Source: Streptomyces sp. NBC_00341 (GTDB lineage: Bacteria; Actinomycetota; Actinomycetes; Streptomycetales; Streptomycetaceae). From it: 64,000 bases of DNA. How positions within the stretch are numbered: the first letter of the stretch is position 1; each line of letters begins with the position of its first letter. The notes under the pieces were generated by a model. That model ran no database searches. It saw nothing but the letters and a program-made list of their open reading frames with translations, and had not been told where the DNA came from. The stretch is from NCBI RefSeq assembly GCF_041435055.1, contig NZ_CP108002.1, positions 7,564,001 to 7,628,000 on the forward strand. The letters are read 5' to 3'. Both the position numbers and the translations under genes were made by a program. Shown here in pieces: positions 35,723 to 39,184 of the stretch.

Positions 35723-35730
35723 TTGATGCT
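35723..35730 (+). repeat. IS110 end: inverted repeat TTGATGCT (3' side of transposase)
   Basis: TTGATGCT here pairs with AGCATCAA at 37030-37037. GCTCCTAT (35728-35735), overlapping it, is repeated at 36898-36905 inside the element's noncoding region. Confidence 0.6.
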
Positions 35731-35740
35731 CCTATGGCTG

Positions 35741-36820
35741 TCAAGCGGCTTGGAGCCATTGGCGGTAGGCGTGGATGAGGTCGTCGTTGCGGCTGGTGCC
35801 CTTCTCGAGCCGGGAGATGGTGGTCGGCCAGGTGCCGAAGTGCTGGGCGGCGGCGGTGAGTGTGATGTTCTTGGCCCGTCGCAGGGGGAGGAGATCAGCG
35901 ATGCCGGGAGTGGTGACCGTGGTGGACAGGCATCGGAAGATCTCTCGGGTGATGGCCCGTTTCAGCAGGCGGATGATCTCTTTCTTCGTCCGGCCGGCAG
36001 TGGTGTGTCGGGAGACGTGTTCGCGGGTTCGGGGATCGCCTGCCATGCGGGTTGGGGCGATGCGGTAGAGGGCTGCGTTGGCGGCCCGGTCGCCGCCGCG
36101 AGAGAGACGGTGGCGGTTGGTTCTGCCGCTGGAGGCGGGGACCGGGGCGGCTCCGCAGAGGGCCGCGAAGGATGCCTCGGTCCGCATCCGTTCGGGGTTG
36201 TCGCCTGCGGTGATCAGCAGTTGAGCGGCGGTGTCGGGGCCGACGCCGTAGGCGGCCCGTAGGCCCGGGTTGGCTGTGGTGACCTCGGTGTTCAGCGCCC
36301 GCGTAAGCGCGTCGTGCTCGGCGGTGAGGTCCATGACCCGGCGGGCGAGGCTTTTCAGCGCGGTCAGGACGCCGGTGCGGGCCTTGACCGCGGAGCGGGC
36401 GGCGTTGTGCAGGGCGCGTATTCCGGCGACGGTGTCGTCCTTGGGGGCGCTGGAGGCGCGTCCGGACAGGGCGGCGCGGGCGGCGGCGTAGGCGTCGATC
36501 GGGTCGGACTTGCCGGTGCGGCGGCGTTCGGCCCGGTCGGGCCGGTTGACCTCGACGACCCGGAAGCCATGGGCGCGTGCCGCCCGGGTGAAGCCGGCCC
36601 CGTAGGAGGCGGTGCCTTCCACCCCGATCGCGACCACCTGCCCGTGTGCGGCCAGGAAGGCCGGGGCCGCGGCGTATCCGGGGGCGGTGGTGGCGAACTC
36701 GGCGTCCGCGAGGTGGCCGCCGTTGTCGCTGATCACCGCGACGTGGATGGTGTCGGCGTGGGAGTCGACCCCGCCGAAGACGTTTCCGTCCACGGTGTCC
36801 GACGCGACTGCTGCTGTCAT
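35741..36820 (-). CDS. IS110-family transposase (DEDD/serine) with C-terminal HTH
   Basis: A 359-residue recombinase. The RuvC-like DEDD site is visible as Asp19 (GGVDSHADT), Glu68 (GVEGTASYG), Asp106 and Asp109 (KSDPIDA). The Tnp domain carries the catalytic serine in PVPASSGRTNRH (residues 230-231), as in IS621-type enzymes. After the usual end the protein has about 100 more residues ending in an XRE-like HTH (TLTAAAQHFGTWPTTISRLE). The frame is intact, so the element may be active. These enzymes work with a guide (bridge) RNA encoded in their own noncoding end; a candidate lies directly upstream. Confidence 0.93.
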   Translation of the reverse strand: MTAAVASDTVDGNVFGGVDSHADTIHVAVISDNGGHLADAEFATTAPGYAAAPAFLAAHGQVVAIGVEGTASYGAGFTRAARAHGFRVVEVNRPDRAERRRTGKSDPIDAYAAARAALSGRASSAPKDDTVAGIRALHNAARSAVKARTGVLTALKSLARRVMDLTAEHDALTRALNTEVTTANPGLRAAYGVGPDTAAQLLITAGDNPERMRTEASFAALCGAAPVPASSGRTNRHRLSRGGDRAANAALYRIAPTRMAGDPRTREHVSRHTTAGRTKKEIIRLLKRAITREIFRCLSTTVTTPGIADLLPLRRAKNITLTAAAQHFGTWPTTISRLEKGTSRNDDLIHAYRQWLQAA

Positions 36821-36859: not shown

Positions 36860-37040
36860 GGTGGCGCAGACAGGACATTGAAGGGGCTTCTGACCAAGCT
36901 CCTATCAGGTCATGTTCCGCCCGGCCGGAGCCATCAGAACAGGTCCCGGCAGCCGGACAGACCAACGGGAAGACAGCCCAGCAGGGCGTCAGTCAGTGGT
37001 AGAGCCACGACCACCGGGACCTGAGTACCAGCATCAATGT
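36860..37040 (-). ncRNA. Candidate IS110 bridge RNA
   Basis: On the minus strand this region can fold into (i) a long-range stem CAGGTCCCGG/CCGGGACCTG (37023-37014 with 36949-36940) enclosing 64 bases with the inner hairpin GTCGTGG-CTCTA-CCACTGAC, and (ii) a hairpin TGACC/GGTCA (36912-36908 with 36895-36891) with a 12-base loop containing ATAGGAGC. The loop sequence also occurs at the far end of the element, as a donor-binding loop would. A stretch at 36984-37000 matches the reconstructed insertion site. Size (about 180 bases) and place agree with known bridge RNAs. Ends are estimates; no promoter was identified. Confidence 0.5.
37030..37037 (-). repeat. IS110 end: inverted repeat (5' side of transposase)
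   Basis: AGCATCAA on the plus strand, partner of TTGATGCT at 35723-35730; the core GT follows at 37039-37040 and chromosomal sequence resumes. Confidence 0.6.
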
Positions 37041-37057: not shown

Positions 37058-39184
37058 ATGGAGGGCATGACGAACTCAGCTGTTGTGCTCGCCGATACCG
37101 CCGCATACGCCGTCGCGGTCGAAGAGGCGTCGCAGGCCGCCGCCGCGTACTACGCCACGGGCGAGAGCACGCTCGACGACGATGCGTACGACCGGCTGGC
37201 GCGCGGGATCGCCGCCTATGAGCAGGCCCATCCGCAGGAAGTGCTGGCCGACTCGCCCACCGGCAAGGTGGCGGGCGGCGCGGCCGTCGGGGATGTGCCG
37301 CACACCGTCCCGATGCTCTCACTGGACAACGTCTTCTCGGCCGAGCAGTTCGTCACCTGGACCGCGTCGCTGGAGCGCCGGATAGGCAGGCCGGTCACCG
37401 CCTGGAGCGTCGAGCCGAAGCTCGACGGGCTGGCGGTCGCCGCGCGTTACCGCGAGGGCCGGCTGGAGCAGCTGGTCACCCGTGGCGACGGCACGGCCGG
37501 TGAGGACGTCTCGCATGCGATCGGTACCGTCGCCGGTCTTCCCGAGCAGCTCGGTGAGTCGGTCACGATCGAGATGCGCGGCGAGATCCTGATGACGGCC
37601 GAGCAGTTCGAACAGGCCAACGCGATCCGTACCGAACACGGCGGCGCCCCCTTCGCCAACGCGCGCAACGGCGCGGCGGGCACCCTGCGCGCCAAGGACC
37701 GCCCCTACACCGTGGAGATGACGTTCTTCGCGTACGGCGCCCTGCCGCTGCCCGAATCCGGCGAGCTGACCGGCACCCTGGCCGAGCTGCCCCACAGCGA
37801 GGTCCTGGGATACGCCGCGCGGCTCGGCGTGCACACCGCGGCGGACACCGACGTGGCGCCGCGCACCGTCACCACCGTCGAGGACGTCCAGCTGCGGGTC
37901 GAGGAAATCGCCGCGCTGCGCGCCTCGTTGCCCTTCGGGATCGACGGCATCGTGATCAAGGCCGACCTCGCGGCGGACCAGCGTGAGGCCGGCTCCGGCA
38001 CCCGCGCACCGCGCTGGGCGATCGCGTACAAACTGCCGGCCGTCGAGAAGGTCACCCGGCTCCTCGCCGTCGAGTGGAACGTGGGCCGGACCGGCATTAT
38101 CGCGCCGCGTGCGGTGCTGGAGCCGGTCGAGATCGACGGATCGACCGTCAGCTACGCCACGCTGCACAACCCGGCCGACATCACCCGCCGCGATCTGCGC
38201 CTGGGCGACCATGTGATGGTCTACAAGGCGGGCGACATCATTCCCCGGATCGAGGCCCCCGTCGCCCATCTGCGGACCGGCGAGGAGCAGTCGATCGAGT
38301 TCCCCGAGGCCTGCCCGCAGTGCGGCTCCGAGATCGATACGAGCGAGCAGCGCTGGCGCTGCGTCCGCGGCCGGAACTGCCGCCTCGTCGCCTCCATCTC
38401 GTACGCGGCAGGGCGCGACCAGCTCGATATCGAGGGGCTCGGTGCGACTCGGGTCGTCCAGCTGGTCGATGCCGGACTGGTCGCGGACTTCGCGGATCTG
38501 TTCGCACTGGAGCGTGAGCAACTGCTCGGTCTGGAGCGGATGGGGGACACCAGTACGGACAATCTGCTGGCCGCGATCGACACGGCGCGCACCCAGCCGC
38601 TCTCGCGGGTGTTCTGCGCCCTGGGAGTACGTGGCACCGGCCGCTCCATGTCGCGCCGGATCGCCCGGTACTTCGCGGACATGGACCGCATCAGATCCGC
38701 CGACGCCGAGACGCTCCAGCTCGTCGACGGCATCGGCAAGGAGAAGGCCGGGGGAGTCGTCGCGGAGCTGGTGGAGCTGGCACCGCTGATCGAGAAGCTC
38801 GTCGCCGCCGGGGTCAACATGACGGAGCCGGGCGCGACCCCGCCCCCGGAGCCGGGCCAGGAAACCGACGCGAATGGCGAGGGCACGGATGGCAAGGGCG
38901 CGGAGGGCGACGATGCGGACGGGCGGCCGCTCGGCGGGATGACCGTCGTGGTCACCGGGTCCATGACGGGCGCCCTGGAGAAGCTCTCGCGCAACGAGAT
39001 GAACGAGCTGATCGAGCGGGCGGGCGGGAAGGCCTCCTCCAGCGTCTCCAAGCGCACCACGCTGCTGGTGGCCGGCGAGAAGGCCGGGTCCAAGCGCACC
39101 AAGGCGGAGGATCTGGGTATCCGGATCGCCGCGCCCGAGGAGTTCGCCGAGCTGGTCGGTGCGTTCCTGCCGTCCCAGGTGTGA
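37058..39184 (+). CDS. ligA: NAD+-dependent DNA ligase (LigA family)
   Basis: A 708-residue ligase sealing DNA nicks with NAD+. The adenylation lysine is in [10 protein letters not shown], with the nucleotidyltransferase motifs [10 protein letters not shown] and FGIDGIVIK; an OB fold, a four-Cys zinc finger (CPQCGSEID...WRCVRGRNC), helix-hairpin-helix repeats and a C-terminal BRCT domain ([10 protein letters not shown] to the end) follow. A Gly/Asp/Pro-rich linker precedes the BRCT. The Ia-domain [20 protein letters not shown] diverges from the housekeeping pattern, so this may be the second LigA that some Streptomyces carry. ATG 37058 (GGTGGG 7 bases upstream) and ATG 37067 are both possible. 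The IS110 element has displaced its upstream region. Confidence 0.9.

Follow-up and report, generated by a model that had tools for sequence, protein, structure and literature searches.

IS900 is among the IS110-type elements that target the start or ribosome-binding regions of genes; a functional gene-start region is preferred there, although these elements are not known to target a promoter motif that belongs to a single regulator. The closest described systems with RNA guides are IS621 (PMC11208160, PMC11208158) and ISEc21 with its seekRNA (PMC11187229). The noncoding RNA of IS621 has two internal loops, in which the left guide pairs with the bottom strand and the right guide, short in the case of the target, with the top strand; the guides are placed on opposite loop sides in opposite sense, and all four guide pairings include the CT core (PMC11208160). 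The IS621 recombinase has RuvC-like and Tnp domains, and its coiled-coil domain (residues 123−188) mediates dimerization (PMC11208158). In ISEc21, which is of the IS110 type, the noncoding region is upstream, no target duplication is made, the bottom-strand match is located 5′ of the top-strand match, and the target is a conserved transposase codon stretch in the gene of an IS3-type element; the same study reported natural redirection through guide changes in ISMch6 (PMC11187229). On the side of the target, the RecA-NDp consensus has been quoted as tTGTCRgtg - 8 nt - TannnT and credited to Gamulin 2004 (PMC5656591). In the PafBC literature (PMC6789036, PMC8223512, PMC11804915), PafBC activates via this motif, with the HTH of PafB on the −26 motif and PafC on sigma domain 4 (PMC11804915).

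The window, i.e. the whole 64,000-nt stretch of Streptomyces sp. NBC_00341 DNA that was analysed, contained an IS110-type element, the bridge RNA of which very probably guides insertion, mostly to PafBC-type DNA-damage promoters. The two internal loops, the strands paired by the left and right guides, the short right target guide, the opposite placement and sense of the guides, and the recombinase domains were shared with IS621. The differences were a CA core in place of CT, a promoter class as the target, and a window recombinase that was shortened in the coiled-coil region. Further, the core was not included in all four guide pairings, since the fit of the left target guide ended with base one of the core and that of the left donor guide was lost ahead of the core; the inclusion of the core in all four was taken as a trait of IS621 that is not needed for IS110 membership. 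The upstream noncoding region, the lack of a target duplication, the order of the two matches and the natural redirection by guide changes were common with ISEc21. A subgroup of relatives at an IS256-type gene resembled ISEc21 also in having a conserved transposase codon stretch as the target, whereas the targets of the lineage were mostly chromosomal promoters of many different genes. The targets had the sequence and spacing of RecA-NDp/PafBC promoters, many of them lay before DNA-repair genes, and the host encoded PafB/PafC-type proteins; the motif is known as a transcription signal, whereas here it was found as an insertion target.

The element (35724−37039, minus strand) was 1316 nt long when the core dinucleotide of both ends is counted, which is TG on the plus strand and CA on that of the transposase. 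It was present in one copy in the 9.06-Mb genome, the remaining match being just 43 bp. The relatives of its transposase comprised 251 tblastn-confirmed stretches, the best 80 of which were kept, and matches to the noncoding end were found in 96 of 392 genomes of the genus. On the transposase strand, the conservation of the right end ran to GCATCA. One genome carried two copies that were alike in their left ends, L005 and L006; these had GC and GT, respectively, directly after GCATCA, so the two bases belonged to the flank. The conservation of the left end began at CA. Taken together, the variation past GCATCA and the left-end conservation from CA gave CA (TG on the plus strand) as the shared core, located at 35724−35725 for the right end (RE) and at 37038−37039 for the left end (LE), where it coincided with bases 2−3 of tTGTCRgtg.

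A natural empty site supported the same boundaries. The ligA upstream region of genome G005 (L114) was uninterrupted and read GGGGCGTTGTCAGTGGTGG, with the junction GGGGCGT-TG-TCAGTGGT. Its right flank aligned with the window from the core onward (83%), and its left flank aligned at 79% up to approximately 106 bases short of the junction. Within those ~106 bases the sequence was diverged and gave no BLAST alignment, yet the junction 7-mer GGGGCGT was identical. In agreement with the IS110 type, the core dinucleotide was common to target and donor, and no further target duplication was seen in L114. The preliminary description had set the core at GT (35722−35723 / 37039−37040) within the site GGGGC-GT-CAGTGGT, and had named an empty site as a check. 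Both the L005/L006 flanks and the empty site contradicted this core: the joined site GGGGCGTCAGTGGT differed from the sequence found in L114, which places the boundary at TG and not at GT.

The transposase (recombinase) of 359 aa was encoded at 35741−36820 on the minus strand. Both IS110 domains were recognized above the Pfam cut-off, namely DEDD_Tnp_IS110 (PF01548, 68 bits) and Transposase_20 (PF02371, 62.9 bits). The noncoding region was located upstream of the recombinase gene, as in the IS110 type, and measured 217 nt from the LE core to the start codon, while 15 nt separated the stop codon from the RE core. The bottom-strand guide was 5′ and the top-strand guide was 3′ in the element; the downstream noncoding region and reversed guide order of the IS1111 type were not found. 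Compared by BLASTP with a 404-aa protein of a relative (L004, 74% identical), the window transposase was without 45 aa after residue 149. Putative catalytic motifs (DEDD and the Tnp serine, assigned by eye) were outside this gap. Because the missing 45 aa belong to the coiled-coil region, the window copy may be immobile.

Ten relatives (L022, L028, L032, L035, L041, L047, L052, L061, L062 and L065) measured 1.76−1.94 kb core to core versus ~1.45 kb, with additional DNA following the transposase gene, ahead of the assigned right end. This DNA may be cargo, a longer right end or the result of a wrongly assigned end.

The noncoding left end (36821−37037, minus strand) was predicted to encode a bridge RNA with two stem-loops. 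Folding of 36821−37038 gave a z-score of −5.58, and none of 200 shuffled sequences was equally stable. The consensus of 20 chosen relatives consisted of two stem-loops with the guides located in internal loops; 97.3% of its cells were paired, and 16 of 48 pairs had changes on both sides. The pairing was as high in 0 of 500 shuffles, and slid versions of the structure paired in 31−49% of cells, although this scoring favours the structure, which had been drawn from the very alignment that was scored. The target-binding loop carried a terminal hairpin, GACGCCC-TGCT-GGGC-T-GTC (36972−36990, minus strand), with a helix of seven pairs, three of which had both-side changes and 99.3% of the cells of which were paired. 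A search of Rfam with 35600−37200 gave no match at E up to 1. The preliminary description had placed an RNA with a target-binding loop in the noncoding end of an IS110 element, and both the IS110 type and a fold as a two-loop bridge RNA were supported.

The donor loop would contain the guides for the ends of the element itself. The left donor guide ATAGGAGC (36898−36905, minus strand), assigned from the sequence and the relatives, was identical to the RE end of the element, with the divergence setting in before the core. The right donor guide TCAATG (36876−36881, minus strand) was the complement of CATTGA at the LE. Covariation was scored for 77 of the 107 rows of aligned elements described below, and LE positions 3 and 5 covaried with the right donor guide (0 of 2000 permutations). 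Hence, TCAATG, TCACTG, TGACTG and TTACTG in the RNA tracked CATTGA, CAGTGA, CAGTCA and CAGTAA at the LE, respectively; 65 elements matched at all six positions and 12 of the 77 did not. The predicted RNA would thus have the target and donor loops with guides in opposite sense that mark the IS110 type.

In five relatives (L029, L007, L021, L025 and L026, the last two from one genome) the left donor guide ATAGGAGC of the bridge RNA was interrupted, at one identical position, by a second element of ~1.28 kb. In L029 it spanned 1638−2917 and carried its own IS110-type transposase (PF01548, PF02371), and a further locus, L099, retained an apparent single end of it. The second element may be an IS homing into the guide RNA of another IS.

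To compare target guides with flanks, 151 loci were examined. The hairpin anchor was missing in 16, and the 135 remaining rows reduced to 123 distinct ones. After 16 of these had been dropped for a weak anchor, a weak left end or no CA core, 107 rows with 106 distinct 30-nt sites were left. The presence of CA at the LE was a condition for the kept rows, so the sample selects for that core. A usable right flank was available for 67 of the 106 sites, the right end being the best ATAGGAGCATCA-like match downstream at 1.1−3 kb core to core, where some of the longer ones may be misplaced.

The left target guide ACCACTGA with the first core base C (36992−37000, minus strand) matched all eight bases of the left flank (LT). 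Across the 106 sites, each element's RNA bases ahead of a constant TGACG agreed with its own left flank. The agreement at LT −5, −6, −7 and −8 was 0.91, 0.94, 0.92 and 0.79 against permuted values of 0.62, 0.65, 0.42 and 0.51 (z = 8−11; 0 of 2000 permutations as high, n = 106). It was 0.82 at LT −3, and the guide-covarying region was LT −3 to −8, with no clear covariation signal at LT −9 and further out among the 106 sites. At the core only the first base fitted the left guide (RNA C-U vs C-A). The right target guide CGTTG (36963−36967, minus strand) was antisense to the target CA-ACG. Its complementarity to the right flank (RT) at +1, +2 and +3 was 0.88, 0.70 and 0.57 versus 0.52, 0.46 and 0.32 after permutation (z = 5.3−7.3; 0 of 2000 as high, n = 67), and RT +4 was borderline (0.46 vs 0.36; 85 of 2000 permutations as high, n = 67). 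All these permutations treat the rows as independent, when the sites are partly kin through related elements and some related promoters. The left and right target guides faced each other across the internal loop and ran in opposite senses.

The sites read by these guides were mostly of one kind. Overall, the 106 sites gave the motif TGTCRGTG-N8-TANNNT. Read from the core toward the flank, they showed TGTC, A (82%) or G (14%), G, T (77%) and G (77%), then eight weaker positions, then T (61%) or C (22%), A18 (94%), three variable positions and T22 (92%). A18 and T22 were both present in 94 of the 106 sites, and the pair was missing in 12. By this alignment the target sites are equal to the RecA-NDp consensus in sequence and spacing. 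The window site itself (37038−37059, plus strand), assigned as the PafBC/RecA-NDp-type ligA promoter from the 106-site motif, the published consensus (PMC5656591) and L114, read TGTCAGTG-N8-CAGTAT, the first −10 base being C in place of the consensus T. The insertion point cut the motif after its first base and left the remainder joined to the gene. In the window, the first t of the motif was replaced by an element-supplied a, so that the ligA side read AATGTCAGTG-N8-CAGTAT, followed by ATG at 37067, and the promoter probably remained functional after the insertion. The literature searches, which left most subscription papers outside, found no paper linking IS110 to PafBC.

In five relatives (L027, L033, L036, L068 and L106, with L049 less clear) the insertions apparently shared a single conserved site, which lay within an IS256-type transposase gene. 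These had ATCACTGA-type guides, and the site was placed at ITDKV codons by eye from the flanks. This subgroup matched A18/T22, by chance or not, although the site would not be a promoter.

The gene at the window site, ligA, encoded an NAD-dependent DNA ligase (37067−39184, plus strand; domains DNA_ligase_aden and DNA_ligase_OB). Its start was 29 nt from the core, and the distance from the −10 hexamer to the ATG was only 7 nt, so the ligA transcript is probably leaderless. An upstream ATG at 37037 was considered as the start and rejected; it was created by the element end, and the ATG at 37067 fitted the start offsets found elsewhere. The element-made ATG (37037−37039) was in frame with ligA (ORF 37037−39184), and automatic annotation may choose it. 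A gene call was obtained for 80 sites (77 promoter-type and 3 not), while 26 sites had none. In 42 of the 77 promoter-type sites with a gene call the start codon was 28−30 nt from the core, i.e. 6−8 nt past the −10, as expected of leaderless transcripts.

Further, 64 downstream proteins, many of them truncated at 700 aa or where the locus ended, were scanned for domains; the proteins of 16 sites, which included near-duplicates as well as ORFs located at the IS256-type gene, were left out. DNA repair or replication families accounted for 17 of the 64 as a raw count. These were NAD ligase, Lhr (four), AlkZ-like (three), DnaN (two), PolA (two), UvrB, a UvrA-type protein, O6-methylguanine methyltransferase (MGMT), DnaE and a RadA-like ATPase, the last assigned by our own reading of its domain set. 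The UvrA-type protein was at a site without A18/T22 (L163), three helicases (L020, L153 and L155) were excluded from the repair count, and the remaining 47 proteins were of other or unknown families. The host genome encoded two adjacent WYL-WCX proteins of the PafB/PafC type, one with HTH_PafC (L187), ~7.4 kb 3′ (downstream) of a pafA-type Pup ligase gene. A transposase-like ORF, recognized by eye, separated the pafA-type gene from genes of the FKBP-like and PafB/PafC types (L186:5423−6364).

The guides of the lineage were not uniform. The tree sample (n = 76) contained the guide classes CCACTGA (22), GGCACTGA (22), GGGTCTGA (15), ATCACTGA (7) and others (10). These 76 rows were what was left of 107 after hand-listed short, truncated or interrupted left ends and left ends below 210 nt had been removed. 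A tree built without the guides needed 13 guide-class changes, the least possible being 4; in this tree 31 of 65 inner branches were poorly supported and the bootstrap had not settled. Three guide classes read TGTCAGTGG, TGTCAGTGC and TGTCAGACC, all inside the promoter class, while the ATCACTGA class included the IS256-type transposase gene sites (by eye). Because most guides of the lineage read variants of the PafBC motif, retargeting seems largely confined to that motif.

The guide explains the promoter bias in part. In 13 Streptomyces genomes (G000−G012), TGTCAGTGG-N8-ANNNT occurred 16−74 times per genome versus 0−2 for the reversed control, and forms a large class of promoters. Background rates were taken from the same 13 same-genus genomes of 21 searched, the eight of other genera being left out. 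A18/T22 accompanied 608 of 907 genomic matches to TGTCAGTGG, 236 of 506 to TGTCAGTGC and 89 of 245 to TGTCAGACC. Among the insertions the respective counts were 27 of 30 (P = 0.004), 27 of 29 (P = 1.4e-7) and 18 of 18 (P = 1.2e-8), so the insertions exceeded the background for all three guides.

Such a −10 excess could be a by-product, if the guide matches many sites and the insertions inside genes are lost by selection, and we give this account slightly less than an even chance. The 9-mer TGTCAGTGG is itself promoter-enriched, as the 608 of 907 matches indicate. The host genome contained 66 guide matches, and all except that of the window, i.e. 65, were assigned to classes with a crude GC3 test; A18/T22 was present in 35 of the 65, and in 30 of the 50 that were not scored as coding. 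The insertions (27 of 30) exceeded these noncoding-like sites as well (Fisher P = 0.005), in a comparison made for the first guide (TGTCAGTGG) only and with a crude coding call. On inspection by eye, at least four of the other 20 noncoding-like sites (L191, L196, L229 and L245) came close to the −10 or had it at a shifted position, which could narrow the true gap.

It is less likely, though conceivable, that targeting is helped, beyond RNA pairing, by the recombinase or by the condition of the promoter, such as an open complex, RNA polymerase or active PafBC. A18 and T22, at a distance of 16−20 bp from the core and beyond the stretch that covaries with the guide (LT −3 to −8), were nevertheless conserved (94% and 92%), and their frequency was above the background of guide-matched sites. 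The same excess is obtainable by selection, however, and several insertions were in apparent coding sites. A stronger version, considered rather improbable, is that the lineage is a one-regulon specialist whose guides follow the PafBC motif and whose insertion also senses the promoter as an open complex or bound PafBC−RNA polymerase. If so, the element would be directed to repair genes upon their activation, at an insertion point that spares the promoter.

The preliminary description had assigned the target reading to one contiguous segment, 36984−37000, acting in a single sense as the target loop for both sides of GGGGC-GT-CAGTGGT. The plus strand there does read GGGCGTCAGTCAGTGGT, as had been described. 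The 9-nt half GTCAGTGGT (36992−37000) was the target guide and fitted the true site; the 10-nt half GGGCGTCAGT was absent from it, being reduced to GGGCGT out of register. On the RNA, that other half (TGACGCCC) proved to be the 5′ arm of the conserved terminal hairpin and was rejected as a guide. Of 67 elements with varying flanks, 29 had ACGCCC as the arm and 26 had ACGTCC, and no covariation with the right flank was detected at its six positions (|z| at most 1.5, 67 elements). The right flank started with ACGCCC in 7 of the 67 elements, and 5 of these had the ACGCCC arm. As the junction was wrong (L005/L006, L114), the arm did not covary and the right guide that does covary is antisense and located elsewhere, a contiguous segment reading both sides is very improbable. 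A target-binding loop fitting the site at 36992−37000 is what stood of this claim, and other copies, proposed as a check, had flanks matching the same segment of their own RNA. Half of the observation therefore held, and the mechanism did so in its broad lines. The match had also been considered improbable by chance, which did not hold for the window by itself: when the 217-nt noncoding end was simulated 5000 times with a first-order Markov model, 359 of the simulated sequences had at least 9 nt in common with one or the other strand of the 32-nt empty site, so the single-window match was only suggestive. That the 9 nt matched by chance in an element without an RNA-determined site is nevertheless barely credible, since the guide covaried with the left flanks across 106 sites, and the 9-nt half was accepted as real.

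Returning to guidance by a bridge RNA, we proposed the following sequence of events. The 217-nt noncoding left end would encode the bridge RNA (seekRNA), which is presumably expressed. In its target loop, the left guide ACCACUGAC and the right guide CGUUG would jointly read 5′-ACCACTGA-CA-ACG, and the donor loop would contain guides that recognize the RE and LE of the element itself. The DEDD/serine recombinase carrying these guides would then recombine the ends into the target at the CA core. The target in this lineage would be mostly one functional class, the −26 motif of PafBC (RecA-NDp) promoters, which are expected to depend on PafBC. The element would enter between the first t and TG, directed away from the gene, so that TGTCRGTG and the −10 would remain with the gene and the displacement would be limited to upstream DNA. 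Such avoidance of damage is probably why the promoter niche is favoured. The basis of this scheme was established by comparison of sequences, i.e. the boundaries, the guide−target and guide−donor covariation, the RNA fold, the promoter motif and the pafBC-type genes of the host.

What appears to be new is an IS110 lineage with RNA guides that read a DNA-damage promoter motif, with most of the sampled relatives at such switches. The targets of bridge RNAs are programmable, and the finding bears on why a lineage would keep one of them: across dozens of genomes the natural guides track the promoter motif of a transcription factor, and insertion takes place at the one edge where the motif is apparently spared. 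The relatives also yield a set of natural guide−target pairs with a CA core. A role of the −10 in targeting would show that a factor besides RNA pairing chooses IS110 sites. The finding suggests a route by which RNA-guided elements reach safe, repeated niches, and in Streptomyces foreign upstream DNA may in this way end up beside DNA-repair genes.
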